A stretch of 21,193 nucleotides of DNA from a virus, in IMG/VR virus record IMGVR_UViG_3300040816_000194, positions 1 through 21,193 of that record, one strand, 5' to 3'. Below are positions 1-16,256 of this stretch, one piece after another; the stretch's first letter is position 1, and each line of letters opens with the position of its first letter. Both the position numbers and the translations under genes were made by a program. The notes under the pieces were generated by a model. It saw nothing but the letters and a program-made list of their open reading frames with translations, had not been told where the DNA came from and did not search any database.

Positions 1-663
1 GTCTGTTATGTTATAACTAAATTCATATATAACATCATTAGTAGCAGTATCTGTTCCAACTAAAATTGTATAAACATTATTGTCTGCTGTTATTACTTGA
101 ATTTCACTACCAAACTTTTCGTTTTGTGCCGGAACTCTACTCATAGAAACTGCACGTAGTCTATAATCTCTAGCACCGACCTTTTGATAAACAAAAATCA
201 TACCTTCTGTTGTATCAGTACCTGTAATATACGGAGTTCTGTCAAAGTCTGCAGGAATATAAGATATTTCTTCAAAATCTTGACTTTCTACAGATATTGT
301 AGAACCATCACCTACAGTGTCTTGTGTTACTTTCCAAAGTTTAGATTCGTATTCTACAACGTCTCCTAAACTGTAAACATTGTTACCGTCATATGTGCCT
401 TTAAAACGAGTTTTTACTCCGCTACTGTTTGGTGCACCTACTACTAAAACATTACCGTCTTCACTTACAGAAAGTACTTCACCAAATGATGGCGATACTG
501 CATAATCATTAATAGGTTTTAATGTTTCTACAAAGACCGGAGTTAAATTTTCACTATTTCTCTGATAATAGTATACTTCACCTTTTTCTATATTTGCTCT
601 AGGGCTGCCTAAGAAAATATTTTGATTGGTCTTATCTGCTGCAATTGATGCACCAAATCTGTC
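1..663 (-). repeat. FG-GAP-like (integrin-type propeller) repeats in the giant protein
   Basis: Three in-frame repeats follow the FG-GAP pattern. DRFGASIAAD..NIFLGSPR...GEVYYYQR begins at residue 2149, FGEVLSVSEDGNVLVVGAPNSSG at 2208, and FGSEIQVITADNNVYTILVGT at 2331. The spacing is 57 residues between the first two and about 124 between the second and third. A chitin-binding-like module of about 50 residues accounts for the extra length. The set runs off the window, so the full blade number is unknown. FG-GAP repeats usually build beta-propellers used for adhesion or ligand binding. Confidence 0.6.
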
Positions 664-3600
664 AATAAAATAATCATCATACTCAAACCAGTTTTCGCTT
701 AGTACAGGTTCTCCGCCTTGTGTGTATGATAAACCTAAACCTCTAGGAATTGCAGCAGATGCTTGATATTTTTTACCTTCAAATATTACAACATCATATT
801 GGTCGTATCCATCAACAGTGTTTAATTCACCTCTATAAACACTAGGATTTTCAAACTCTTTAAACACAGAATGCGGATCTTGATTTTCAAGTAATGCCCA
901 ATTACTATCTCCGATATCATCAAACCAAACTTTATCGCCTGGTAATAAAAAGTCTGTTATAATATCACTATTAAATGTATTTGCATCTTTAATTCTATAG
1001 TTTGTAAATTTAGCTACAAATGCTCTATTAGGAACTATACTTTCTTCAGAAGGTGCAATGTCTGCTTTTATATCAATAATATTATTGTTTACGTTTAATA
1101 CTTTCCATGCTTTGTTAATTGTTTGATCAACTGGAACATTTGCGTCTTCAATTACGCCTCTAATCAAGATATAATCATTTTTAGAAATATCTTTTACTTG
1201 TTTATTTAAAGTTAGAGATAATACACCTTGATTGTTTTCTGCACTTATGATGTTTAAATTAGTTTTACTAGGTTTTAGTACTGCCCAATCATTTATATAA
1301 TTAGCTACCCAAACATACCCAGTTCTAGAAGTATTTCTAAAATCAATAGTAGAAATGTCTTCTATTTCTTTAATAGTAAATTCTACATCTTCATCAGCTA
1401 CATAGCCTGTGGTTTTTAAATATAAATTATAATCATCACGAGTTACAAAAGGCTTATGATCATACCCTTCAGGTTTTGTATAAACCTCATCAGGAATTTG
1501 TTGATATACTAGCTCAGATGTATTATTGTCTTTTGCTGTTACTAGTGATACTGGCTGCGGCTCAAGAATATATTTCTGTTCATCAATTATATATTCAACT
1601 TCTTTAAAGTTACTTACACCGCCATATTGTCCAACTCTTATAGCCCATTCTTCATAAAATTTTAAACTATCTTCGCCTGCTGCACTTATACTTTCAAATA
1701 ACTTAGTTAAACTATTAAGGGTACCCTTTTCGCGAATCATACCTTGATAGAATTTATACTGACTTACTTCGTCGTTAATAATATTTTCAAGATACTGACG
1801 TTTTTGATATCCTACTAAATGTTGAGCTAGACGTTGCTGTTCACTGTCAAAATTGTCACTTTCAAGATCATAAAAGTCTCCAAACTGTGCAACTTTGTAA
1901 TCAAAGTTTGGTAAAAGACTAGCTTCTGGTTTTGCTGAAAGTCTTGCCCATTGTGTTGTATCAAAAGATTGTGATCCAGAAATATTAAATTTAGCAGAAT
2001 AATAAAACTCTTTAAATTTAACAGTGTCACCTATGTTATAATCAGTAAAAGGTTCCCACTTTTTAATTATTACATTATCGTATATAAATCCTGGAACATT
2101 AAAATCGCCTGACCATTCGTCAGTTCTATAACCTAGAACACGAATACGTTCTTGTCTATATCCCATTTCAGGAGAATATATAACATCTTTAAATTTAGTC
2201 TCATTGTCAAAAATAACAACGTGTTCTTTTTGTACAGGATATAGTTTTGCGAAATATATACCTTCACTTGTGTTTACTGTTTTTAAAGTAAATTTGTTGT
2301 TTTTATTTCTAACAGTTTTGACATTAGTACTGTCTAAAGGTCTTCCGTCTGCTTTTAGAATACTATATCCATAAAATGGATTTAAAATATTATCTATAAC
2401 TGCATATTCTTGTTTAACAACTAAGCTGTTTGCAGCTGGACTTAGTGTTAAGACACTGTTATCGTCCCAATTTTGTGTGGTCCAGAATAAAAACTCTTTT
2501 ACACTTAGCTTCCAGTTTTCAATTTCTAAATTTTCAGAACTAAATGCATCAAATTCAAATCCTTGAGCTTTTAAATAATATTCGTATCCTAATAAGAAAT
2601 CGACAACTTCTTGCACAGTAGCAAAAAGAGTTCCATAAGGTACAACTAAAATTTCATTTCTAAACTTTCTTCTAATAGTTGCCCTTGCACCACCAACTTC
2701 TGGCAGTGCTGGAATTTTTTGCCAATCATCGCTATTAAAACTATTAGACGAATTTTTATTTAAAGACTTGTAAAAAGAGTTTTGATAAGATACATATTCT
2801 CCTTGAGCATATTCAACTCCTGAATTCCAATTTGAAAAGTCAGTAGTTACTCCACCAACTACTATACCTTTATCATCAATAGACTCGAGATAGTCATTAA
2901 TATAAAAATTAGTATTTTCTTTATTGTATCCTTTTACAACAAATCCATTAGCTTTCTTTTCAATTATTACACCGCTATAAACAAGTTCATTTGTAGGTGA
3001 GCTTGAATTTAATATAATATTAAAGTTTTCTTCTGGAACAAAAACATTTCCTTGATTTAGTGGTGTTCTGCTATCAAGAATCAATCTAAAGTTTTCTTTA
3101 CTTGTAAATCCTGCAATTTTAGAACCGATTCTATTTGTTATGCTTGAAAGCCTAGAAGCATACGACTCAAAAATATTTTTATTTTTACTTGTTAGATAAT
3201 TCTGAACATAGTTTACAATACCAGCTGTAAATTTCTTTTCGGTGTCTCCGCTTACGTTCGGAAATACTATTTTATCTAAAGTTATTCTTTGGTTCTCATT
3301 TTCATAAACAATTTGGTCTATTTTATTAACTTTTTGTCTACTTCTGTCAAACGAACTTGAAAATACGTGATGAGGTTGATTTACCATATATGCTAATAAT
3401 ATTGAAAACGCATACTCAGAACTTTTCCTCCATGCATTTTCTACAGGTGATATATCACCAAATTTATAATCATTATCAGCTAAATTAATATCAAAGTTTT
3501 TAATTAGTCCTGCTGCAATAGGATCTTTAAGATTGCCCTGACCATCGACTGGCAATTTATTAATTAAAAACGGTTTTGCACGTTTTTTATTTGTAATTAA

Positions 3601-6600
3601 TCTAGCATTAGGATTTCTAATTATACCTGCTGACAAATCTTCCCAAAGTAACTTATTTTCTGAAGTGTACGGAGCAGGACCGTATTGATCTTCCCACCAC
3701 AAAGGTTTGATAGTAAATCCTAGCATTTCCCATGGATGCGTATTTGGTCTGTCAGTTTCATATACATATTTGTATATTCCTCTCCAGAACCCCGGACTTG
3801 ATTCACCATTGAATAAAAGACTAAAGCTATAATTAAACGTAAAAGGATTATTTGCGTTAAAATAGATGTTTTCTTGAGGATTTTCTAATCCAGCAAGAGA
3901 TACCCATTGTCCATAGTCTGTAGAAAGCGAAAGATTTGCAGAACCAATTGTAAATTCTGTTTTTCTTTGTAAAGTTGATTGGAAATCATCATAGTCTAAA
4001 AGTCTAGTATTATATTCTACTTTGATGTTATTAAAAATTCTTTTTTCTAATTCAAGAATAATATTATCTCTATAATCATCATAAGCACGTATTAAACTAC
4101 CATCGTGTCCTTGTATAAAATTAACAGCTTCTGGGTAAGATTTATCCTGGACTATCATAGGTTCAAATTTTGGATATAAACCAAACTTTGTCGGGGTCGG
4201 AGGAACAAAATTACCGTTAGTAGTTTCATACTCAAATATTTTTAATACAGAGTTAGGCGAATCTATATTTTGTAAAATTATAAATTCGTCTTGGATAATG
4301 TAATCTTTTTCAATTAATAATAAGTTATCGTCTAGATAAACTAATAACGCTTTGTCTGAAACTGTATTAATGTCAAAGTCTAGATAAAAAGGATATGTGT
4401 TTAACCCTCTTTCTAGTACATATTCATAAGTTTTGAATCCTTTATACGGTACCATATCACTAAAGTAGAATGGCATTGCATTATTTTTATTAAGATTAAG
4501 TTCTTTTAAGGCATTATCAACATGCTCTTTAATTTTACCATTAAAAGGTAAATCGGTAATTGTTTTTATAAAGTTGCGTTTAAATTTTGAATATTCATTT
4601 TTAGCAAATCTAATTGCTTTTATAGCATTTGCATCAGCATCTAATAAGTGATATGATGCAAGATTAAAAGGACTGCTATGCTGAATTACTTTCTTACCGT
4701 AAACAGTTGCATCTTGTAAATCTCTCAAATTAGATTTGCCCGGAAATACTCCGTTAAAATCTGGGTGTTCTTCTGCAATAGATAGTACATGGTCAATAAC
4801 TTCGCCATAACTAAATTCTGGTAACGAATTATTTGCAGGATTTCTTTCTAAATTAGATGCAATCTCATAATAGCCTTTATCTGTTTTTTGAGCAGATGAT
4901 CTTGCTTTAATTAAAATTTTATCATCAACACTTAGACTGTTAAACTGTATATATAGTTTTCCTTGTTCTGAAATTGTAATATAATCTTTATTTTCAAATA
5001 CTAAAGAATTATTTTTATAAATTACTAGTTTTAAGTCATCTAATAGTGCAGCGTTTTCAAAAACATCTACTTCAAATAGATCTTCAACTCTTTCTGCATA
5101 ATACTGTCTAATCACAAAAGAAGGATTTGTAACTTTAGATTTTTGCCAAGCATTTTGTAACTTATAATTTCCGTTTCTATCATATACACGAACAAAACAA
5201 TCTTTACTATCAACTGTTGCAGAAAGGGTATCAATTGTATATGTATACGTTTCTGTTAGATAATTAAAATCGAAAAGTATATCACCTGTATTTTCTATAG
5301 TTTGATACTTTAGCGGAAATCCTAAATCTTCATCATTTGCTCCGGAGCCAACTGCATATGAAAATATATTGTTGCCTTCGAAGTTAGTTGATCCATAAAC
5401 AATGTCATCTGACAAGCTAACATCATTGGCGTCAAATAAATCAAAATGAGGTGCTTGATTTATAGTATTTTTTCTTTGTGCTGGATTCCATTGATTACCG
5501 TCATAAAACCACATAACACCTTGGTTTTCTGTACCCTGTTTAACTAGAACTGTTTCATTTTCTATAGGCTCAGCATCTGTTTCTTCTACAAGTGATATTT
5601 GATTTTGATTTCTAAAATCAATAAAAGTTACACGATATATTTTTCCGTATACTCTGCTGTCTGTATCAGCAGTAAATAACACTCTCATACCTTCGACTAG
5701 ATCAACACCGTCAATATTATAACCTTGAGATCCTTCAATAATACTAAAAACATCAGTTGTAAATGTGTCAATAACAGTAACAGGTGTTTTTTGTTTTGTT
5801 CCAAAGTTAAATAATTTTAATCCAGAAGTAAATTCAATAATAGGTTTAAATGCTCTAGCAGATTGGTCTATTTCTAACTCAGTACCATTAATTTTTGCAG
5901 TTTTTTCTAAAACATCAATATGGAACCAACGATTATATCTACTCCAAGGAGATCTATCAACTGCCGATCTACAGATTAAAATATAATCTTTAGAACCAGC
6001 AAATGATGCTTGATTTCCAAAAGGAATAGTATCAAAACCTACTTCATCAAACGGTACTTGAGTTGATTGGGTATACGTTGCAGGTATTTCTAAGTCGTCA
6101 CTTGATACTAATTCAATTTTGTTTCCGACTCCTTCTACATACCAAAAACCTTCACTATACTTTTCAGGATTTGTTCTTCCTAAAAATTCTATCTTCATAC
6201 CGTTAGATAATTTTTCACCATTAGATAGCGTGTATTCTTTTTTACCAATAATTTCATTTTCTACATCAATGGAAGAATTTTCTTCTATTGGTAATACATT
6301 AATTTGGCCACCTTGATTTAAATCATTACCGTTAACATAGTAAAGCGTTTCGGGTGTTTGTTCGTCAATTATAACAGTTATAACGCCCTGTTCAGCACCA
6401 TTATTTGTAACTTTGTCATATCTATAAGTTTGACCTTCTCTTTTTTCTACTTGAAAGAAAAGAGGTGCATCCGGAGTATCTACTTCAAACTTATAGATTT
6501 GTCCTCTATAAAGATTAATTGTAGGATTTCTAGTAAGTCCGTTAGGATTAAAAATATAAGGTTGGTTATCTATTTCGTCTGCTAGTTCTACTGTATACGT

Positions 6601-7107
6601 ACTTTCTAATAAATCTTGCTGGCCAAAAATACTAATAGCATCTGGGCCATTTGGCAACCAATAATATTCTCTAAAGTTTACAAATTTATCCCAGTCAATA
6701 TTAGGATTCCAAGAATAGGTTTCTTGTTGATTTAATAAACCGTAATTACTAGTTGTACTATTAAAAATTTTAATTTGATTTAGATAATCATTATAATCTT
6801 TATAATAAGTAACATTTTCTAAATCGTCAATAATAACACTTGCAGGTTCAAGTTGATAATTTTTTCTTTGGTTCGAAATATCACCAAGATAGCTATCAGT
6901 TTTTTTGCTACTTTTTGCAGTTTCTCTACCTAAGTATGAATTAATTTTTTCAACAGCACCGTTTTGTATAAACTGATCTAATGTTGCATTTATAAATTTT
7001 TCATTTGATTCTGTTCTAAAAAATCTAGGTAAAAAAGGAGTTGCTTCTTTCTTTTGCTCACTAGCACCCGGCAATGCTTTTTCGTTTTGATTTTTATCGT
7101 AAGCCAT
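1..7107 (-). CDS. Giant baseplate/tail structural protein, position of gp7 (3' end missing)
   Basis: An uninterrupted frame of 2369 codons runs from an ATG at 7107 to base 1, where it is still open; I checked every in-frame codon for stops. It starts 2 nt after the gp6 stop, with GGAGGAAG upstream. The N-terminus (about residues 20-150: PFLPRFFRTESNEKF, TLDQFIQNGAVEKINSYLG, W-rich IDWDKFVNFREYYWL) matches what I remember of a giant structural protein family in marine T4-like phages. A helical stretch near 1740-1800 (MIREKGTLNSLTKLFESI) resembles the FYSTKGIEASYKFLF segment of T4 gp7. Four chitin-binding-like modules lie at about 1425-1465, 1682-1722, 2090-2142 and 2234-2282, and FG-GAP-like repeats from 2149 onwards. 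T4 gp7 is about 1030 aa, so this is more than twice as long. The position after gp6 suggests a wedge-attached peripheral baseplate or adhesin role; the exact function is inferred. Structural late protein: high confidence; gp7 equivalence: tentative. Confidence 0.8.
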   Translation of the reverse strand, partial: MAYDKNQNEKALPGASEQKKEATPFLPRFFRTESNEKFINATLDQFIQNGAVEKINSYLGRETAKSSKKTDSYLGDISNQRKNYQLEPASVIIDDLENVTYYKDYNDYLNQIKIFNSTTSNYGLLNQQETYSWNPNIDWDKFVNFREYYWLPNGPDAISIFGQQDLLESTYTVELADEIDNQPYIFNPNGLTRNPTINLYRGQIYKFEVDTPDAPLFFQVEKREGQTYRYDKVTNNGAEQGVITVIIDEQTPETLYYVNGNDLNQGGQINVLPIEENSSIDVENEIIGKKEYTLSNGEKLSNGMKIEFLGRTNPEKYSEGFWYVEGVGNKIELVSSDDLEIPATYTQSTQVPFDEVGFDTIPFGNQASFAGSKDYILICRSAVDRSPWSRYNRWFHIDVLEKTAKINGTELEIDQSARAFKPIIEFTSGLKLFNFGTKQKTPVTVIDTFTTDVFSIIEGSQGYNIDGVDLVEGMRVLFTADTDSRVYGKIYRVTFIDFRNQNQISLVEETDAEPIENETVLVKQGTENQGVMWFYDGNQWNPAQRKNTINQAPHFDLFDANDVSLSDDIVYGSTNFEGNNIFSYAVGSGANDEDLGFPLKYQTIENTGDILFDFNYLTETYTYTIDTLSATVDSKDCFVRVYDRNGNYKLQNAWQKSKVTNPSFVIRQYYAERVEDLFEVDVFENAALLDDLKLVIYKNNSLVFENKDYITISEQGKLYIQFNSLSVDDKILIKARSSAQKTDKGYYEIASNLERNPANNSLPEFSYGEVIDHVLSIAEEHPDFNGVFPGKSNLRDLQDATVYGKKVIQHSSPFNLASYHLLDADANAIKAIRFAKNEYSKFKRNFIKTITDLPFNGKIKEHVDNALKELNLNKNNAMPFYFSDMVPYKGFKTYEYVLERGLNTYPFYLDFDINTVSDKALLVYLDDNLLLIEKDYIIQDEFIILQNIDSPNSVLKIFEYETTNGNFVPPTPTKFGLYPKFEPMIVQDKSYPEAVNFIQGHDGSLIRAYDDYRDNIILELEKRIFNNIKVEYNTRLLDYDDFQSTLQRKTEFTIGSANLSLSTDYGQWVSLAGLENPQENIYFNANNPFTFNYSFSLLFNGESSPGFWRGIYKYVYETDRPNTHPWEMLGFTIKPLWWEDQYGPAPYTSENKLLWEDLSAGIIRNPNARLITNKKRAKPFLINKLPVDGQGNLKDPIAAGLIKNFDINLADNDYKFGDISPVENAWRKSSEYAFSILLAYMVNQPHHVFSSSFDRSRQKVNKIDQIVYENENQRITLDKIVFPNVSGDTEKKFTAGIVNYVQNYLTSKNKNIFESYASRLSSITNRIGSKIAGFTSKENFRLILDSRTPLNQGNVFVPEENFNIILNSSSPTNELVYSGVIIEKKANGFVVKGYNKENTNFYINDYLESIDDKGIVVGGVTTDFSNWNSGVEYAQGEYVSYQNSFYKSLNKNSSNSFNSDDWQKIPALPEVGGARATIRRKFRNEILVVPYGTLFATVQEVVDFLLGYEYYLKAQGFEFDAFSSENLEIENWKLSVKEFLFWTTQNWDDNSVLTLSPAANSLVVKQEYAVIDNILNPFYGYSILKADGRPLDSTNVKTVRNKNNKFTLKTVNTSEGIYFAKLYPVQKEHVVIFDNETKFKDVIYSPEMGYRQERIRVLGYRTDEWSGDFNVPGFIYDNVIIKKWEPFTDYNIGDTVKFKEFYYSAKFNISGSQSFDTTQWARLSAKPEASLLPNFDYKVAQFGDFYDLESDNFDSEQQRLAQHLVGYQKRQYLENIINDEVSQYKFYQGMIREKGTLNSLTKLFESISAAGEDSLKFYEEWAIRVGQYGGVSNFKEVEYIIDEQKYILEPQPVSLVTAKDNNTSELVYQQIPDEVYTKPEGYDHKPFVTRDDYNLYLKTTGYVADEDVEFTIKEIEDISTIDFRNTSRTGYVWVANYINDWAVLKPSKTNLNIISAENNQGVLSLTLNKQVKDISKNDYILIRGVIEDANVPVDQTINKAWKVLNVNNNIIDIKADIAPSEESIVPNRAFVAKFTNYRIKDANTFNSDIITDFLLPGDKVWFDDIGDSNWALLENQDPHSVFKEFENPSVYRGELNTVDGYDQYDVVIFEGKKYQASAAIPRGLGLSYTQGGEPVLSENWFEYDDYFIDRFGASIAADKTNQNIFLGSPRANIEKGEVYYYQRNSENLTPVFVETLKPINDYAVSPSFGEVLSVSEDGNVLVVGAPNSSGVKTRFKGTYDGNNVYSLGDVVEYESKLWKVTQDTVGDGSTISVESQDFEEISYIPADFDRTPYITGTDTTEGMIFVYQKVGARDYRLRAVSMSRVPAQNEKFGSEIQVITADNNVYTILVGTDTATNDVIYEFSYNITD
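262..408 (-). repeat. CBM5/12-like module 4, inserted between FG-GAP repeats
   Basis: Residues about 2234-2282 read RFKGTYDGNNVYSLGDVVEYESKLWKVTQ in two overlapping parts: the Y..GDVV.Y..KLW.V core is clear, but the closing position is a phenylalanine instead of tryptophan. It sits between the second and third FG-GAP-like repeats, as if inserted into a propeller. Confidence 0.45.
682..840 (-). repeat. CBM5/12-like module 3 in the giant protein
   Basis: Residues about 2090-2142 contain YDQYDVVIFEGKKYQAS followed by P...W2140, directly ahead of the first FG-GAP-like repeat. It has a longer loop before the closing tryptophan than modules 1 and 2, so this is a weaker match. Confidence 0.4.
1936..2064 (-). 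repeat. CBM5/12 (ChtBD3)-like module 2 in the giant protein
   Basis: Residues about 1682-1724 repeat the same pattern: W1684, then YNIGDTVKFKEFYYSAK, then W1720. The first-to-last tryptophan spacing (36) is almost the same as in module 1 (35), which supports a shared fold. Confidence 0.5.
2710..2841 (-). repeat. CBM5/12 (ChtBD3)-like module 1 in the giant protein
   Basis: Residues about 1423-1466 have the W...Y..G..V.Y.N.FY....N......W pattern of small chitin/carbohydrate-binding modules, with the bracketing tryptophans at 1427 and 1462. Such modules bind polysaccharide through exposed aromatics. Pattern recognition only. Confidence 0.5.
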
Positions 7108-10590: not shown

Positions 10591-11037
10591 TTAACTGATG
10601 AGTCCGTTTTTTTGATCAAAATCTAGTCGCATTTTTTCAGAAATGTTATATGTAAGATATTTTAGTTCGCACTCAATTAATATACCGCTGTCTTGCTGTT
10701 CTACATTAACACTGTTAACTTGAATCCTAGGATCGTAGTTTACAATATCTTCTACGTTTTGTATGATCGCTGCTCTTAAATCATCAGTCAAAGGTTCAAA
10801 TAGTACATCCCATATAATAGTACCAAACTCAGGATTTTCTAGCTTTTCACCTTGTCTAATATGAAAATGATTAATTAAGTCTTGTTTTATAATAGCAATA
10901 TCATACAAACTATAACTTAAATTTTCATCAGAACCTACAGAACTAAATCCTCTGTATCTTTTAGATACAACTGGATTAGGATCTTCATATCCTACTACTT
11001 TTACGTTTTTATAAATGTTTTGTTCTGTACTTGGCAT
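10591..11037 (-). CDS. 25: Baseplate wedge subunit gp25
   Basis: gp25 is the small wedge protein next to gp6 and gp53 that helps trigger sheath contraction; it is the most widely conserved baseplate protein of contractile systems. The 148-aa product (T4: 132) shows the family core at about residues 45-115: DLINHFHIRQGEKLENPEFGT, IWDVLFEPL, IIQNVEDIVNYDPRI and the beta strands VNSVNVEQQ...LIECELKYL. The ATG at 11037 follows GAGGG by 10 nt. The start lies 15 nt after the gp5 stop, and gp6 follows. Confidence 0.93.
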   Translation of the reverse strand: MPSTEQNIYKNVKVVGYEDPNPVVSKRYRGFSSVGSDENLSYSLYDIAIIKQDLINHFHIRQGEKLENPEFGTIIWDVLFEPLTDDLRAAIIQNVEDIVNYDPRIQVNSVNVEQQDSGILIECELKYLTYNISEKMRLDFDQKNGLIS

Positions 11038-11052
11038 AATGTATTTACCCTC

Positions 11053-13542
11053 TTAACGTGGACCTAATTTTGGTACGTCACCTGTAGATCTTGGATCGGT
11101 TTGTTGAGGTTCAAGCGTAAGACTTGCAAGAGGTACTAGCTCTTTGTTAATAAGTCTATTAGCAAAACCTCTACCTAACCCAATACGTCTATTTGTTTCT
11201 GCGCCGCCTTGATCTGCATATCCTACTGCTCTGCGGAATTCTTGTCCAAGTGCTGCATAGTCAAAACTTGTCCAAGTAATACTCTTAGACTTAATGTATG
11301 CACATGCAAGTTTAGTTGCTATTTCTGGATCGTTTGCTAGATCAGGATTTTCAACTACTTGAGGTACTCCAGCAAGTCCACTATATTTTTCGTAGTTTGA
11401 CTTAAATGTAAGTTGTATCAAACCTCTACCACGATATTTGTAACCTTCATCTTGAGCGTTACCGTAACGGCCACCGTATAGTGTATTACCTATTGCGGCA
11501 GGCCCTGCTGCTGAAAGTTGTCTAGCAAACTCATCTGTTTTAACTCTTGACGGAAATACCTGTCTTAGACGTGTTGCACTATAATTTAAGTTTTCGCTCT
11601 TAGGAATAAACGTACATTCTGCTTGTACTTGTGCCATTGCCATTCCTAGTGCTTCTGCGTTTCCAGGAGTTTCGCCTTCTGGTACTAGATCTGGATTTGC
11701 ACTGTTTAATGCTGTTGCAGGATCTAATCCGATAGCATTAATAAGTTCACTAACAAAGTATTGTTGTAAATCGCTAACAGGAACTGGGTTTGAAGGTTGT
11801 TCACCGGTAGGACCTACTTGTCCAAACACAATTTCTTGAGGGCCGCTTACGTTTGCTTGATCTCTAAACTGTGTAGTTGTCGGCCTTTCATCTGCTGCAC
11901 TGGTGATTAAAGGCGTGCTTTCATTTAATTGCGCACTAGGACTTTCAACACCTTGCGTTGCATCAGGTCCAAAAGACTCCGGATTTAAATGTTCGTGTTC
12001 TCCCCAAGGTTCGTGTGTAGGAACACGCTGTGGGAACGGGGCATTTGCTGCTGTTACTGCACTTGCTGCGGCTGCTGCATCTCCTGCTGCGGCTGCTGCT
12101 GTTGCATCTGGGCCATTAAGATTAATGTCACCGCCTGATATTGTAGTATTTGCTGCTTTTATTTCTGCATTACCACCCGATGTAAAATAATTGTATCCAC
12201 CTGTGTTAACGTCCCAATTTGCTTGTGTATCTTTTCTGTCGCCTGCTGTGTTAATATCTAGTGTTGCAGCATTCGATTCTGTACGGGCTCCAGTTGTACT
12301 AATGTCTAAAGTAGCTTGATTTGTAATTTTATGAGCGCCTGTAACTATTAAATCGCCTGTGCCACCTACTAACACTTTTTGATCTGCACCAACATAATGA
12401 TCATAGTTAGCACCAATGTCAAAATGTGCATCAACACCAACTTTAGTATCCCAATTATTACCTACTGTATGTTTATGATCTCTACCACTATTAAAGTTAA
12501 TATCTCTAGCAGCACTCATATTAATATCTCTATCAGCACTTATGTTTAAATCAACACTAGTTCTAATGCTAATGCTGTCATTAGCAAATATATCGATTTT
12601 ACCGTTTGCTGTTAACTCTATCCAACTGTCTCCGCTGCCATGAGAAATATAAATTAAATCTTCAGTGTTATGGAATAATATTTGATGACCTGTTCTAGTT
12701 CTAATTCTAACACACTCATTTGCTGGAAGAGATTTATCACCTGTTTCATTAGCTGTTACATTAGCATATTCAAATGGAGTAGTTTTAGCAGGACCTTTAC
12801 GCACTAGTCTTTCATCACCGTCGTCCATTACAAAACTACTGCCACCTAATCGACTTGTATATTTTGTTGCTTTTGCATCACTTGTTCCTACTTTAGACTT
12901 AGGACCATTTTTATTAATCGGTCCAGGAGTAGAAACTCCAAATACTGTAGAAGGAACTTCTCGTCTTGCTGTACTACTGCTTAACCCCCTAACTTCATCT
13001 ATTTGCAATCCTGCTCTACTTAGACGTTGATAAAAGTCTGTATTAATCGGTTTTACATATCTTGTTGCATTGCTTCTGACAGGTTGTTCAACTTTTTTAT
13101 TATACTCTCCTACGGGCGCATAAGTTTTAGACTCGTTGTCATAACTTCCAGGCTGTGCTCCTGGTACCATGTAATTTACAAATTCGTCCATTACACAGCC
13201 CATCCAGTAACCTTGTCCCAAATCGCCTTCTACAAATATACACATTACCTTTTGTCCAACATCAGGCGGAACAAACCACATTCCGTAACTCTGTTGACTA
13301 TCGTAAAATCCAGGATTAGAAGTGTTGGCACTCAAAGGTGTTACTCCATAAAAAGGATTTAAATATCTTACAGTTACCGTTTCACCTAATGCTTCAGGTG
13401 TATTTCCTGCTGCTGTTGATTTTAATAGTTCTACTTGTAAATTACCCATATAACTAGGGTCTGCGTGACTTATAACTTTTGCAAGATATGGCCCAGGATT
13501 AGTTAGTCTACCACTATTTGCGCTTCTAGATAATTCTGCCAT
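11053..13542 (-). CDS. 5: Baseplate hub gp5 with C-terminal GH19-like lytic domain
   Basis: This is the central spike of the baseplate, which punctures the envelope and locally degrades peptidoglycan. Residues about 17-130 form the gp5 N-terminal OB-like domain (GPYLAKVISHADPSYMGNLQV, VGQKVMCIFVEGD, GYWMGCVMDEF). Residues about 300-470 are repetitive and beta-rich (IDIFANDSISIRT, VDLNISADRDINMSAARDIN), matching the gp5 triple-stranded helix. An Ala-rich linker (about 475-500) and a HEPWGEHEH peptide (W513) follow. Residues about 585-800 look like a GH19 chitinase/endolysin: the Glu-containing AQVQAECTF (E642), ENLNYSATRLRQVFPSR (E650), YGGRYGN and YRGRGLIQLTFKSNY. T4 gp5 instead has a GH24 lysozyme between the OB domain and the helix. 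The ATG at 13542 overlaps the previous stop by 1 nt, with AGAGGA upstream. Confidence 0.92.
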   Translation of the reverse strand: MAELSRSANSGRLTNPGPYLAKVISHADPSYMGNLQVELLKSTAAGNTPEALGETVTVRYLNPFYGVTPLSANTSNPGFYDSQQSYGMWFVPPDVGQKVMCIFVEGDLGQGYWMGCVMDEFVNYMVPGAQPGSYDNESKTYAPVGEYNKKVEQPVRSNATRYVKPINTDFYQRLSRAGLQIDEVRGLSSSTARREVPSTVFGVSTPGPINKNGPKSKVGTSDAKATKYTSRLGGSSFVMDDGDERLVRKGPAKTTPFEYANVTANETGDKSLPANECVRIRTRTGHQILFHNTEDLIYISHGSGDSWIELTANGKIDIFANDSISIRTSVDLNISADRDINMSAARDINFNSGRDHKHTVGNNWDTKVGVDAHFDIGANYDHYVGADQKVLVGGTGDLIVTGAHKITNQATLDISTTGARTESNAATLDINTAGDRKDTQANWDVNTGGYNYFTSGGNAEIKAANTTISGGDINLNGPDATAAAAAGDAAAAASAVTAANAPFPQRVPTHEPWGEHEHLNPESFGPDATQGVESPSAQLNESTPLITSAADERPTTTQFRDQANVSGPQEIVFGQVGPTGEQPSNPVPVSDLQQYFVSELINAIGLDPATALNSANPDLVPEGETPGNAEALGMAMAQVQAECTFIPKSENLNYSATRLRQVFPSRVKTDEFARQLSAAGPAAIGNTLYGGRYGNAQDEGYKYRGRGLIQLTFKSNYEKYSGLAGVPQVVENPDLANDPEIATKLACAYIKSKSITWTSFDYAALGQEFRRAVGYADQGGAETNRRIGLGRGFANRLINKELVPLASLTLEPQQTDPRSTGDVPKLGPR

Positions 13543-16256
13543 TAAAATCCTCTTGTAATACCTTTTCTAAGATCGGTTATTCTATTTTCAATTTCAGCTG
13601 CCGATTGTGTTATATTGTTTATTGAACCTGTAGCTTGATTGACAGTGTTTTGAATTTGCGCAGATGCGCCTTCTACTTGTTTAAGAGCATCACTTACTCC
13701 CGGTGCAAAGTCAGATAATGCGCTGCCAAAACTAAATCCGTTTAACAATCCTTGTGCTTTGCCTAATACGCCTTGTAATGCACCGTCAAGATTGTCTTGG
13801 AAATCACCAATAGGATTACCGCCTTCAAAGAATGCAAATGCATCACTTGCTGTACCTTCTTTTTCTTGGTTTGGTCTACGTATCATATCAAGTGTTTGAG
13901 TAAATTGATTACCAGACCATGTGTTTTTGACCATTATTACTCTATAAAGTCCACTAAAAGGAGTAAGTCTAGTTCCATCGTCAGGAAATAGCATGCCGCC
14001 AGTATCTTCTCTGTAATCAATAGGTGTTCTAAAGTTAACTATTACATCTACTTCACCGTTTTGATAATTCATACTTCCGTCACTTGTTATGTTAAGTGCT
14101 CCACTAGGAGGACTATTATAGTTTCCCATTCCACTATCGGAAATGTAGTAAGGATCTCCTAGTATTTCAAGTTGTAATTGTACTAAGTCGACATCACTGT
14201 TAATAACAGCATCGTGAAATTGACGAGCAACTCTTATTTTTTGATCGTCTAGTTCAGTACCTTTAATAGGAGCAGTTTTTGGTTCAATTGTGTTTACTTT
14301 CGGAGCTTCGCCGTCAGGATTAAATTCGCCTGCACCTTCTGCTTGATTAAGGACTGTTTGTTCTGTTGCTAATGCACCATCTTGACCATTACTACGTAAA
14401 TTTGGAGCGCCTTGTCCTCTGTCGTCTTGCAATGCTGTAAAAAATGCAAAATTAAAATTTATATCAAAGTTTATTATGTCTTTGTTTTTTCCAGTATAGA
14501 TATAGTTGTATTCTTTAACTGCGTTTGATTTAAGTGAAGGATATCCGACAGAACCGCTGCTTGATTTTTTAAACACACTATGATGGACTAGATAAGGAAC
14601 TACGCTATACACATATACCGCTGGTGTTTTACCACTTTTAGAACTATCTGAATAATCTTGATTTATAAAAACCTTAGTTTCAATTCTAAACCAAGGTAGC
14701 ATTCCGTTACCGTCTGGCTGTTTATCAACAATGCTTTTAGCCCATTCGCTTGTTAATACTACTGCTTCAATAATTTTAGATATTTCAGTTTTTTGACTAA
14801 AGTTATATTGTCTAATATCTGAAGATATTGTTAACTTGTTTTGGTCCATTAGACCTGTAACTTCATCGTATATAAAAGCATCTACTCCCATAGGGCTTTT
14901 ACCTCTTTCAGTAGGAGCACCTACTGTTTTTGATGTACCAATATCGTTAGCGGAAGAATTTGCTAAACTAGAAAGTCTTGTACTAACACTATCTTTACCA
15001 ATAGACGTTCCTTTGGTTTTCTGCATTTCTTCAATTTTATCAATAATAGGACCGTCAACGCCTACTGCGCCAATACTTTCCGCTGCATCTTCTTTAGTAG
15101 TAGTTGCACTACCAGCAGGAGTAGAAATGACTTGAGATAAGTTTGTATCACTTTTAGGAAAAATAATTACATACTCATCAGGAGTGCTTACTTCGTTTGC
15201 TTTTTGCTTTTCTTTTTCTCTACGATTTAGAATACTTGTTAAACTGTTTTCACCGGTTTGTAATATTTCTGCTACTGTTCTTCCAGTAGGACTTACATCA
15301 CCTTTAACTTTTTGGATGTCATCTGCAAATGCTACTTCGTTCCAAGGTATAGCCTCTACAGTATAAACACTGCCTCCTGCTGTAACATTAAATTTAATAT
15401 CAACAAATCTTAATGGATAGTACCTAGTTGTGTTTTCTATTATTTTAATATTACCAAAGTCGTCGTGACCAACAAAATCAATTTGTAAAACATAGGTTGC
15501 TTCAATATAGTTTGCATGTCCTGCAGATAATGCTGCTGTCATTAATGACTGTAAAAACAGTCCCATACTATATGGTTCAGTTACTTCAAAACTAATAGAA
15601 GTAGCATTTGATGACCCAATGCTAGGCTTAGGAGCAATTATACTATCAATCGAAACATTATCTATAAAGTATTCAACTCTTCCTCGACTTTCATATGCAG
15701 TAGTTGCTTTAGAAGATCCTAAGCCGCCGCCGCTTCTTAATATTTTTATTTTAGGTCCATTTGTTCTATATGTTGTTTCAGGAAAATTAACTTCGTCTGC
15801 ACTTAGTACACCTAAAGTAAAAATATTATTAAAGGATGCAAATTCTTCTAAAGGGTTAGGTTGAAAACTGCTTCCGCCAAAACTAGGTGCTGTGAAATTT
15901 GTTACAGAAGCAAGTGCTCCTTGTATACTAGAAGATAAATTTTTAGTAACAGTAGCAGCATCTATTTTTCCAGCTATTGCACCTTCAACTGACGATATTG
16001 CACCTTCAACTGATTCTGCAATTTGAGAAGGAGTAGTCCCCCATCCAATTCCTGGAATGAATACGTCACCAGGTGACGGTTCGCCTTTGCCACCAAACGC
16101 ATCTAAACTTACACCTGCTTCTGCAGCAGCTCCTGCAATATTTGGGCCAGCGCCACCAAACGCACTTAAATCATTTGCTATTTTACTTGCAGTATTTTTA
16201 GCAGATGCGGCTTGCATTCTTGCTTGTCTTAGTATTGCATCATCATAGTTTGCCAT
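13542..16256 (-). CDS. Large baseplate structural protein, probably gp27-like hub
   Basis: This is a 904-aa protein directly upstream of gp5 and coupled to it by a 1-nt overlap (TAATG). The N-terminus (1-60) is Ala/Gly-rich and the C-terminus (about 855-904) is Ser/Asn/Gln-rich and looks like an amphipathic helix or coiled coil (VEGASAQIQNTVNQATGSIN). The C-terminal part of the folded region (about 745-800) has the SGLYRVIMVKNTWSGNQFTQTLDMIRR pattern seen in hub/late-control (gp27, gpD-like) proteins, where a strand pair ends in a dipeptide of basic residues. In T4, gp27 and gp5 form one complex, and no other gp27 candidate is in the operon. T4 gp27 is only about 390 aa, so this would be a much enlarged form. 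Structural role: likely; gp27 identity: inferred from position and a weak pattern. The ribosome site is weak (AGAAG/TTAGG within the end of gp53). Confidence 0.6.
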   Translation of the reverse strand: MANYDDAILRQARMQAASAKNTASKIANDLSAFGGAGPNIAGAAAEAGVSLDAFGGKGEPSPGDVFIPGIGWGTTPSQIAESVEGAISSVEGAIAGKIDAATVTKNLSSSIQGALASVTNFTAPSFGGSSFQPNPLEEFASFNNIFTLGVLSADEVNFPETTYRTNGPKIKILRSGGGLGSSKATTAYESRGRVEYFIDNVSIDSIIAPKPSIGSSNATSISFEVTEPYSMGLFLQSLMTAALSAGHANYIEATYVLQIDFVGHDDFGNIKIIENTTRYYPLRFVDIKFNVTAGGSVYTVEAIPWNEVAFADDIQKVKGDVSPTGRTVAEILQTGENSLTSILNRREKEKQKANEVSTPDEYVIIFPKSDTNLSQVISTPAGSATTTKEDAAESIGAVGVDGPIIDKIEEMQKTKGTSIGKDSVSTRLSSLANSSANDIGTSKTVGAPTERGKSPMGVDAFIYDEVTGLMDQNKLTISSDIRQYNFSQKTEISKIIEAVVLTSEWAKSIVDKQPDGNGMLPWFRIETKVFINQDYSDSSKSGKTPAVYVYSVVPYLVHHSVFKKSSSGSVGYPSLKSNAVKEYNYIYTGKNKDIINFDINFNFAFFTALQDDRGQGAPNLRSNGQDGALATEQTVLNQAEGAGEFNPDGEAPKVNTIEPKTAPIKGTELDDQKIRVARQFHDAVINSDVDLVQLQLEILGDPYYISDSGMGNYNSPPSGALNITSDGSMNYQNGEVDVIVNFRTPIDYREDTGGMLFPDDGTRLTPFSGLYRVIMVKNTWSGNQFTQTLDMIRRPNQEKEGTASDAFAFFEGGNPIGDFQDNLDGALQGVLGKAQGLLNGFSFGSALSDFAPGVSDALKQVEGASAQIQNTVNQATGSINNITQSAAEIENRITDLRKGITRGF

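Follow-up and report, generated by a model that had tools for sequence, protein, structure and literature searches.

The spike protein gp5 of phage T4 consists of an OB domain, a GH24 lysozyme and then a beta-helix, with the lysozyme placed around the top of the helix. During infection the T4 needle, tipped with gp5.4, crosses the outer membrane, and the lysozyme helps the tube through the peptidoglycan (PMC7600766). A different order was described in 2013 for RaK2 ORF078, in which the helix is followed by a C-terminal lysozyme, a "very unusual domain composition" (PMC3622015), and likewise in 2017 for CBB_240, which has a C-terminal lysozyme and a possible M23 domain and was detected in virions by mass spectrometry (PMC5259590). 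The available sections of an overview of jumbo phages (PMC7824862) mention PAAR proteins and tail-associated lysozymes, and the enzyme-after-helix arrangement does not occur in them. In the literature searched, which mostly did not extend to subscription journals or bioRxiv, we found no description of a GH19 enzyme after the helix or of an exchange of enzymes across the clade. Placement of an enzyme after the helix is hence known, whereas the broader modular pattern across the clade appears undescribed in the literature searched.

We analyzed a virus record of 21,193 bases (hereafter the window), which contains an 829-aa gp5 homologue amid baseplate genes (Table 1). On the minus strand these follow the order 297-aa virion protein, gp53, a 904-aa protein at the hub position, gp5, gp25, a gp6-like wedge protein and a very long protein; the ORF for the last of these encodes at least 2369 aa and runs off the window (positions 1-7107, minus strand). 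The plus strand carries a 301-aa ORF along with SbcD-like and SbcC-like ORFs. The jumbo phage PA5oct displays the same gene order and, alongside it, SbcD and a late sigma factor; of this arrangement, 121Q, GAP32 and Munch share the sigma factor and the baseplate part. By gp5, the nearest isolates are PA5oct (36% over 17-356), the 121Q/GAP32/Munch group and Atu_ph07; a megablast search of the whole window against phage records gave no match. An earlier note made from the DNA letters had ordinary marine T4-like phages in view as kin, but the nearest isolates are instead jumbo phages of the types represented by PA5oct, RaK2/121Q and Atu_ph07. Metagenomic relatives lie on contigs of up to 330 kb, which makes a jumbo genome likely, and the window is probably a fragment of the genome of a jumbo phage of the T4 superfamily.

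The same note had read the spike as an OB domain, a beta-helix, a linker and a GH19-like domain in that order, and had held that both the type of the enzyme and its place depart from T4. Profile searches bear this out and add a conserved tip motif between helix and linker: residues 11-436 match PHROG 13211 (baseplate hub and tail lysozyme; 2.5e-39), residues 267-486 match phrog_430 (2e-06) and residues 633-754 match PHROG 181 (endolysin; 1.2e-31). Three Pfam models fall slightly under their curated cut-offs, namely Phage_base_V at 85-117 (21.1 bits against 23.8), Gp5_trimer_C at 339-415 (28.5 against 30.9) and Glyco_hydro_19 (PF00182) at 698-749 (5.1e-05; 23.6 against 25.5). The PHROG and PDB-sequence E-values are strong and a second record (L002) is identical, which excludes a chance match. 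No Pfam or PHROG lysozyme profile was recovered between the OB domain and the helix (residues 119-338), where T4 has its GH24 domain. The AF2 model of the full-length monomer is poor outside GH19 (mean pLDDT 64.8, pTM 0.38, no strands after residue 320) and unsuited to geometry, so that both the helix and where the enzyme stands with respect to it are read from sequence profiles. Foldseek nevertheless placed GH19 endolysins, the spikes of contractile injection systems and VgrG and, weakly, T4 gp5 (1k28) in the list for this model. Thus, both profiles and Foldseek recover the OB domain and ensuing beta-helix of the gp5/VgrG spike family, with a predicted trimeric state.

Table 1. Features of the spike gene and its two neighbors (positions in the window; residue numbers are those of the 829-aa protein)
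Feature	Position	Strand	Basis
904-aa virion protein directly upstream of gp5, at hub place	13542..16256	-	phrog_11190 3.1e-25; synteny with PA5oct, 121Q, GAP32
gp5-like baseplate spike protein, 829 aa, ATG start	11053..13542	-	ORF; phrog_13211 2.5e-39
gp25-like baseplate wedge protein, next gene downstream of gp5	10591..11037	-	PF04965 3.2e-10
N-terminal OB-domain region, residues ~17-118	13189..13494	-	Phage_base_V 85-117 (under cut-off); AF2 strands 19-116
Segment 119-280 between OB domain and helix, conserved in the clade, without lysozyme	12703..13188	-	Pfam/PHROG profiles; alignment
Beta-helix shaft, residues ~281-485 (putative ends)	12088..12702	-	Gp5_trimer_C 339-415; phrog_430 267-486
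Tip motif PTHEPWGEHEHLNP, residues 508-521, consensus PxHEPWxxHENLxP	11980..12021	-	alignments; also ends enzyme-less spikes
Linker, residues 522-584	11791..11979	-	sequence; low pLDDT
GH19 endolysin-type domain, residues 585-798	11149..11790	-	phrog_181; PDB phmmer; AF2 and VIA, Z 16.3 to 9eoi
E642, predicted catalytic base	11617..11619	-	E in 80/81 relatives; aligns with E51 of PaGH19Lys and E49 of SPN1S endolysin
E650, predicted catalytic acid	11593..11595	-	E in 79/81 relatives; aligns with E60 and E58 of the same enzymes
Q710-L711-T712; T712 predicted water-coordinating Thr	11407..11415	-	Q and T each in 79/81 relatives; Q127/T129 in PaGH19Lys

The C-terminal domain shows both the profile and the fold of the GH19 endolysin-type family. 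A phmmer search against PDB sequences recovered the GH19 endolysins 9ms6 (4.4e-14), 8p8e (1.7e-13) and 4ok7, and the AF2 model of residues 508-829 (mean pLDDT 82.3, mostly above 90 in the enzyme) superposed with VIA on the GH19 endolysin 9eoi with a Z-score of 16.3 (184 residues, 2.5 A), followed by 8p8e (16.1), 4ok7 (15.4) and TseP (8xcl; 14.8). PaGH19Lys is a measured muramidase that uses E51, E60, Q127 and T129 and is crippled by E60Q (PMC12329726), and the SPN1S GH19 endolysin has E49 and E58 as its catalytic pair, with T130 holding the water (PMC8547705). The corresponding glutamate pair and threonine are present in the window's domain, and the two glutamates, which the earlier note had singled out as kept, are indeed nearly invariant across relatives. 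Among 38 close pairs drawn from 19 relatives, with the window in none of the pairs, the median dN/dS is 0.062 and the maximum 0.153, which shows purifying selection on the family. With the catalytic residues kept and a median this low, the domain is constrained as an enzyme would be, and it is by its sequence a predicted muramidase.

A comparison with described spikes shows which parts of this architecture are shared. T4 gp5 has the same OB domain and beta-helix needle, the same hub place by the gp25, gp53 and gp6 genes and a spike-borne peptidoglycan-cutting enzyme; unlike its GH24 domain, which lies between OB domain and helix, the GH19 of the window follows the helix, the tip motif and the linker. 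The hubs of RaK2 (ORF078), CBB (CBB_240), 121Q, GAP32 and Munch have a homologous spike N-terminus (phrog_13211), the same gene neighborhood and a peptidoglycan hydrolase C-terminal to the helix; they differ in bearing a GH24 domain and an M23-like segment rather than GH19, and they lack the HEPW motif in the aligned place. Hence the enzyme-after-helix departure that the earlier note had pointed out holds with respect to T4, but the order itself had already been described in RaK2 and CBB. Delftia phage PhiW-14 and Synechococcus phage BUCT-ZZ01 do carry GH19 inside gp5, but ahead of the helix (13-323 and 173-359 respectively). We accordingly set aside the view that the window's spike has no precedent, given the C-terminal lysozymes of RaK2 and CBB and the GH19 domains of PhiW-14 and BUCT-ZZ01. 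PA5oct gp350, the nearest by N-terminus among the isolates and set in the same gene order, is 477 aa long and stops right after a degenerate tip motif, without an enzyme. In the evolved VgrG proteins of the type VI secretion system (T6SS), such as VgrG3 of Vibrio cholerae, a peptidoglycan-cutting domain is likewise C-terminal on a homologous spike. These, however, belong to a bacterial weapon, whereas the gp5 of the window is surrounded not by a T6SS gene cluster but by a gp25, gp6, gp53 and SbcD/sigma neighborhood, and its GH19 matches the separate T6SS effector TseP (PMC11893102) rather than VgrG3.

To place the window among its relatives we collected 425 loci, of which 417 contained the gp5 N-terminus and 396 of these a complete 3' end, reducing to 261 distinct spikes (5 isolates added by hand and 30 from the GH19 bait alone among them). 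The viral scans each gave the best 80 matches, out of 595-598 relatives matching an N-terminal bait and out of 100 matching the GH19 bait; the sample is biased, so that the class counts below are not prevalences. C-terminal classes were built by single linkage. Among the matches listed, the commonest are GH19 (82 of 261; 81 passed the family check and L040 failed), no enzyme (77) and an M15-type class (21), followed by a lambda-R-like class (phrog_90; 16), a phrog_196-like class (15), a VgrG3-like class (13) and low-complexity C-termini (12). The small classes among these matches comprise a phrog_27932-type enzyme (7), a second M15-like group (7), GH24 (3), M23 with GH24 (3, all isolates) and five singles. 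When the GH19 bait is left out, 231 spikes remain, with 52 GH19 forms and 77 without an enzyme. The earlier note had allowed that a C-terminal enzyme of this kind might turn out to be common to all marine T4-like phages; the arrangement is frequent, yet it is one of many among the relatives.

The assignments were compared with family profiles as totals rather than member by member. In this sense, the matches among 66 scanned C-termini to PF13539 (21), PF21277 (13) and PF00959 (3) equal the sizes of the first M15 class (M15a), the VgrG3-like (VgrG3C) class and the GH24 class, and those among 38 scanned C-termini to phrog_90 (16), phrog_196 (15) and phrog_27932 (7) equal the sizes of the GH104-like, SLT-like and phrog_27932 classes. 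GH104 and lambda-R-like are both names for the phrog_90 class. The label SLT is our own, in that Pfam SLT matched 2 of the 66 C-termini and phrog_196 is named baseplate hub; the second M15-like group (M15b; 7 members) and the single spike L235 had no family match in the profile searches and were labeled by eye. The VgrG3-like class, whose best match to PF21277, the Pfam model for the C-terminus of the T6SS protein VgrG3, is 9.5e-37, also matches PDB 4noo, and in its members (L186, L087, L098, L103 and nine more loci) this domain sits at the gp5 C-terminus, just where the bacterial effector has it. The C-termini of L027 and L065 gave no phmmer match in PDB. The family profile of the phrog_27932-type enzyme has it ahead of the helix (330-497, with the helix at ~542-742), but in the surveyed spikes it follows the helix.

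That the C-terminal part moves independently of the rest of the spike is seen most directly in L027. This locus bears the window's nearest spike among the matches listed, with 72% to the window in the 297-aa protein, 77% in gp53, 55% in the hub protein, 65% in residues 1-355 of gp5, 73% in gp25 and 67% in gp6, and it is closer than every GH19-bearing relative in these six flank comparisons; the maxima over the other 15 loci are 54, 61, 43, 58, 61 and 54%, respectively, the last of these setting aside one 36-residue gp6 fragment. L027 nevertheless has no detectable match to the window in gp5 356-507 or in GH19, and carries the phrog_27932-type enzyme in place of the latter. Conversely, the GH19 domain most similar to that of the window among the matches listed (79%) is found in L108, the flanks of which are at 43-59%. 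With the flanks of L027 the nearest and the distal helix and enzyme unrelated, one of the two lines has had the distal half of its gp5 exchanged as a single unit.

The phylogeny of the N-termini extends this picture to the clade. A maximum-likelihood tree was computed for 127 spike N-termini, left from 221 rows once near-copies, eight rows that were long or distant, and members of the low-complexity, "other" and M23GH24 classes had been taken out. On it the C-terminal class changed at least 24 times, against a possible minimum of 11 and a mean of 73.8 for shuffled labels; the labels are thus far more clustered on the tree than shuffled ones. Taken by itself, GH19 requires 8 changes, 6 of which are forced by starred branches. 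A FastTree version with all 221 rows gave 30 changes of class. The grouping of the window with L027 has a support of 97 in the FastTree version (a starred branch), but only 90/96 in the careful 127-row tree. From its distal helix onward, gp5 forms an exchangeable cassette that relatives swap for one with another peptidoglycan hydrolase or with none.

The boundary at which the enzymes attach is marked by the tip motif. Enzyme-less spikes (e.g. L060, L011 and L012) stop shortly after PxHEPWxxHENLxP and the enzymes start beyond it, which indicates that the motif marks the end of the shaft and that the enzyme is encoded beyond this end. The motif was recovered in 238 of the 261 distinct spikes by a pattern that fixed positions 1, 4, 5 and 9, so that only the remaining columns count as evidence, among them H3 (0.86), W6 (0.91), E10 (0.99) and P14 (0.94). 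The two His-Glu pairs of this motif, seen in the window and in nearly all relatives, might form a metal-binding closure of a trimeric tip. A PAAR tip protein is encoded separately between gp5 and gp25 in 12 of the 82 GH19 forms, two examples being confirmed with Pfam, which indicates that a PAAR cap and a C-terminal enzyme can coexist. Among GH19-type relatives, small PAAR-motif genes in this place are found in L004, L005 (3837-4118), L006, L007 and L008 (8109-8369). No PAAR gene was found in the window's 21 kb, nor between gp5 and gp25 in most relatives.

We infer that the gene would encode the trimeric needle of a contractile tail, probably that of a jumbo phage of the T4 superfamily, each chain of which would contribute an OB collar and beta-helix, the conserved tip motif, a flexible linker and a GH19 muramidase. 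Upon contraction of the sheath the needle would pierce the outer membrane and carry up to three copies of the enzyme on its leading end into the periplasm. Entering with or ahead of the tip, these would there cut the glycan strands of peptidoglycan ahead of the tube. Delivery with or ahead of the tip is suggested by the analogy with the T4 needle and by the parallel with VgrG3, and the trimer, the muramidase activity and the role in entry are likewise proposed. To this reading as a whole, namely a trimeric needle with a GH19 muramidase at its leading end and an exchangeable distal cassette, we give a probability of roughly three in four.

The placement of the enzyme at the leading end can be doubted, because the linker of ~63 residues could let it fold back along the shaft. 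Packed against shaft or collar in this way, the GH19 would occupy a place in the virion much as in T4, and the low modeling confidence of residues 522-584 along with the tolerance of GH19 ahead of the helix in PhiW-14 and BUCT-ZZ01 would agree with this. We nevertheless regard this as unlikely: a conserved tip motif stands between shaft and linker, and the PAAR proteins that accompany a minority of GH19 forms suggest a closed tip, though they do not locate the enzyme. A further doubt concerns catalysis, since alanine (A641) replaces the histidine of the usual HE pair and enzyme-less spikes are common enough (77 of 261 distinct spikes) for catalysis to be dispensable in the family, in which case the domain might be a wall-binding or structural end-piece. 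The earlier note had flagged the AE pair as unusual; it is present, but unremarkable, in that the residue preceding the first glutamate in 81 relatives is A (41), G (24), T (7), R (4), H (3) or S (1), with one gap (A, G, T, R or S in 77). A valine takes this place in the endolysin structures 9ms6 and 8p8e, which also dispense with the histidine. We therefore rejected the equation of AE with inactivity, and the retention of E642, E650, Q710 and T712 in 79-80 of 81 relatives and a dN/dS of about 0.06 leave a non-catalytic end-piece quite improbable.

The GH19 domain might also be cleaved off to serve mainly as an endolysin in lysis rather than in entry, seeing that its closest solved relatives are endolysins and that T4 gp5 is itself cleaved (PMC7600766). 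Free-standing GH19 was never met among the ORFs fetched: 100 of 105 are fused to the gp5 N-terminus and the remaining 5 are cut by a contig end. The domain is thus joined to a virion spike in all 100 full-length cases, and related hubs are found in virions, namely CBB_240, by mass spectrometry (PMC5259590), and PA5oct gp350; we hold this reading to be very improbable. The same counts, together with the identical record L002, led us to reject a chance fusion of ORFs in a single contig.

Within the favored reading, that of a leading-end GH19 on an exchangeable cassette, the spike tip looks like an exchangeable tool holder for wall-cutters. On a more specific version, to which we give even odds, the conserved HEPWxxHEN tip of a large clade of environmental jumbo-type phages would close the needle, perhaps by binding metal, and serve as a docking platform into which at least seven unrelated wall-cutters have been plugged by recombination, following the wall of the host. 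If so, the evolved VgrG effectors would have a counterpart, and possibly one of their sources, in this phage platform, as a VgrG3-like domain is among those plugged in. On the favored reading, the statement that the T4 spike carries a lysozyme generalizes to a needle that bears whichever wall-cutter has been acquired, with the carrying place moved to the tip. Spikes with the same needle and a different enzyme, or none, form a natural comparison set for asking whether entry enzymes track the wall chemistry of the host and whether they are needed at all, and the set also bears on the exchange of parts between phage spikes and T6SS effectors. It further offers biochemistry a source of many natural, predicted spike-fused muralytic enzymes.

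Three further spikes display unusual combinations of domains. The gp5 of Agrobacterium phage Atu_ph07 (L025) has a lambda-R-like (phrog_90) domain at 497-655 and, C-terminal to it, ends in a trypsin-like protease domain (700-849). In BUCT-ZZ01 (L427) the GH19 ahead of the helix is accompanied by a weak C-terminal M15 match, giving two enzymes on one spike. Finally, a gp5-like protein on a Porticoccaceae MAG contig (L189:4917-7427) ends in a Peptidase_S74 chaperone domain (5.4e-05), which is unusual for a spike.
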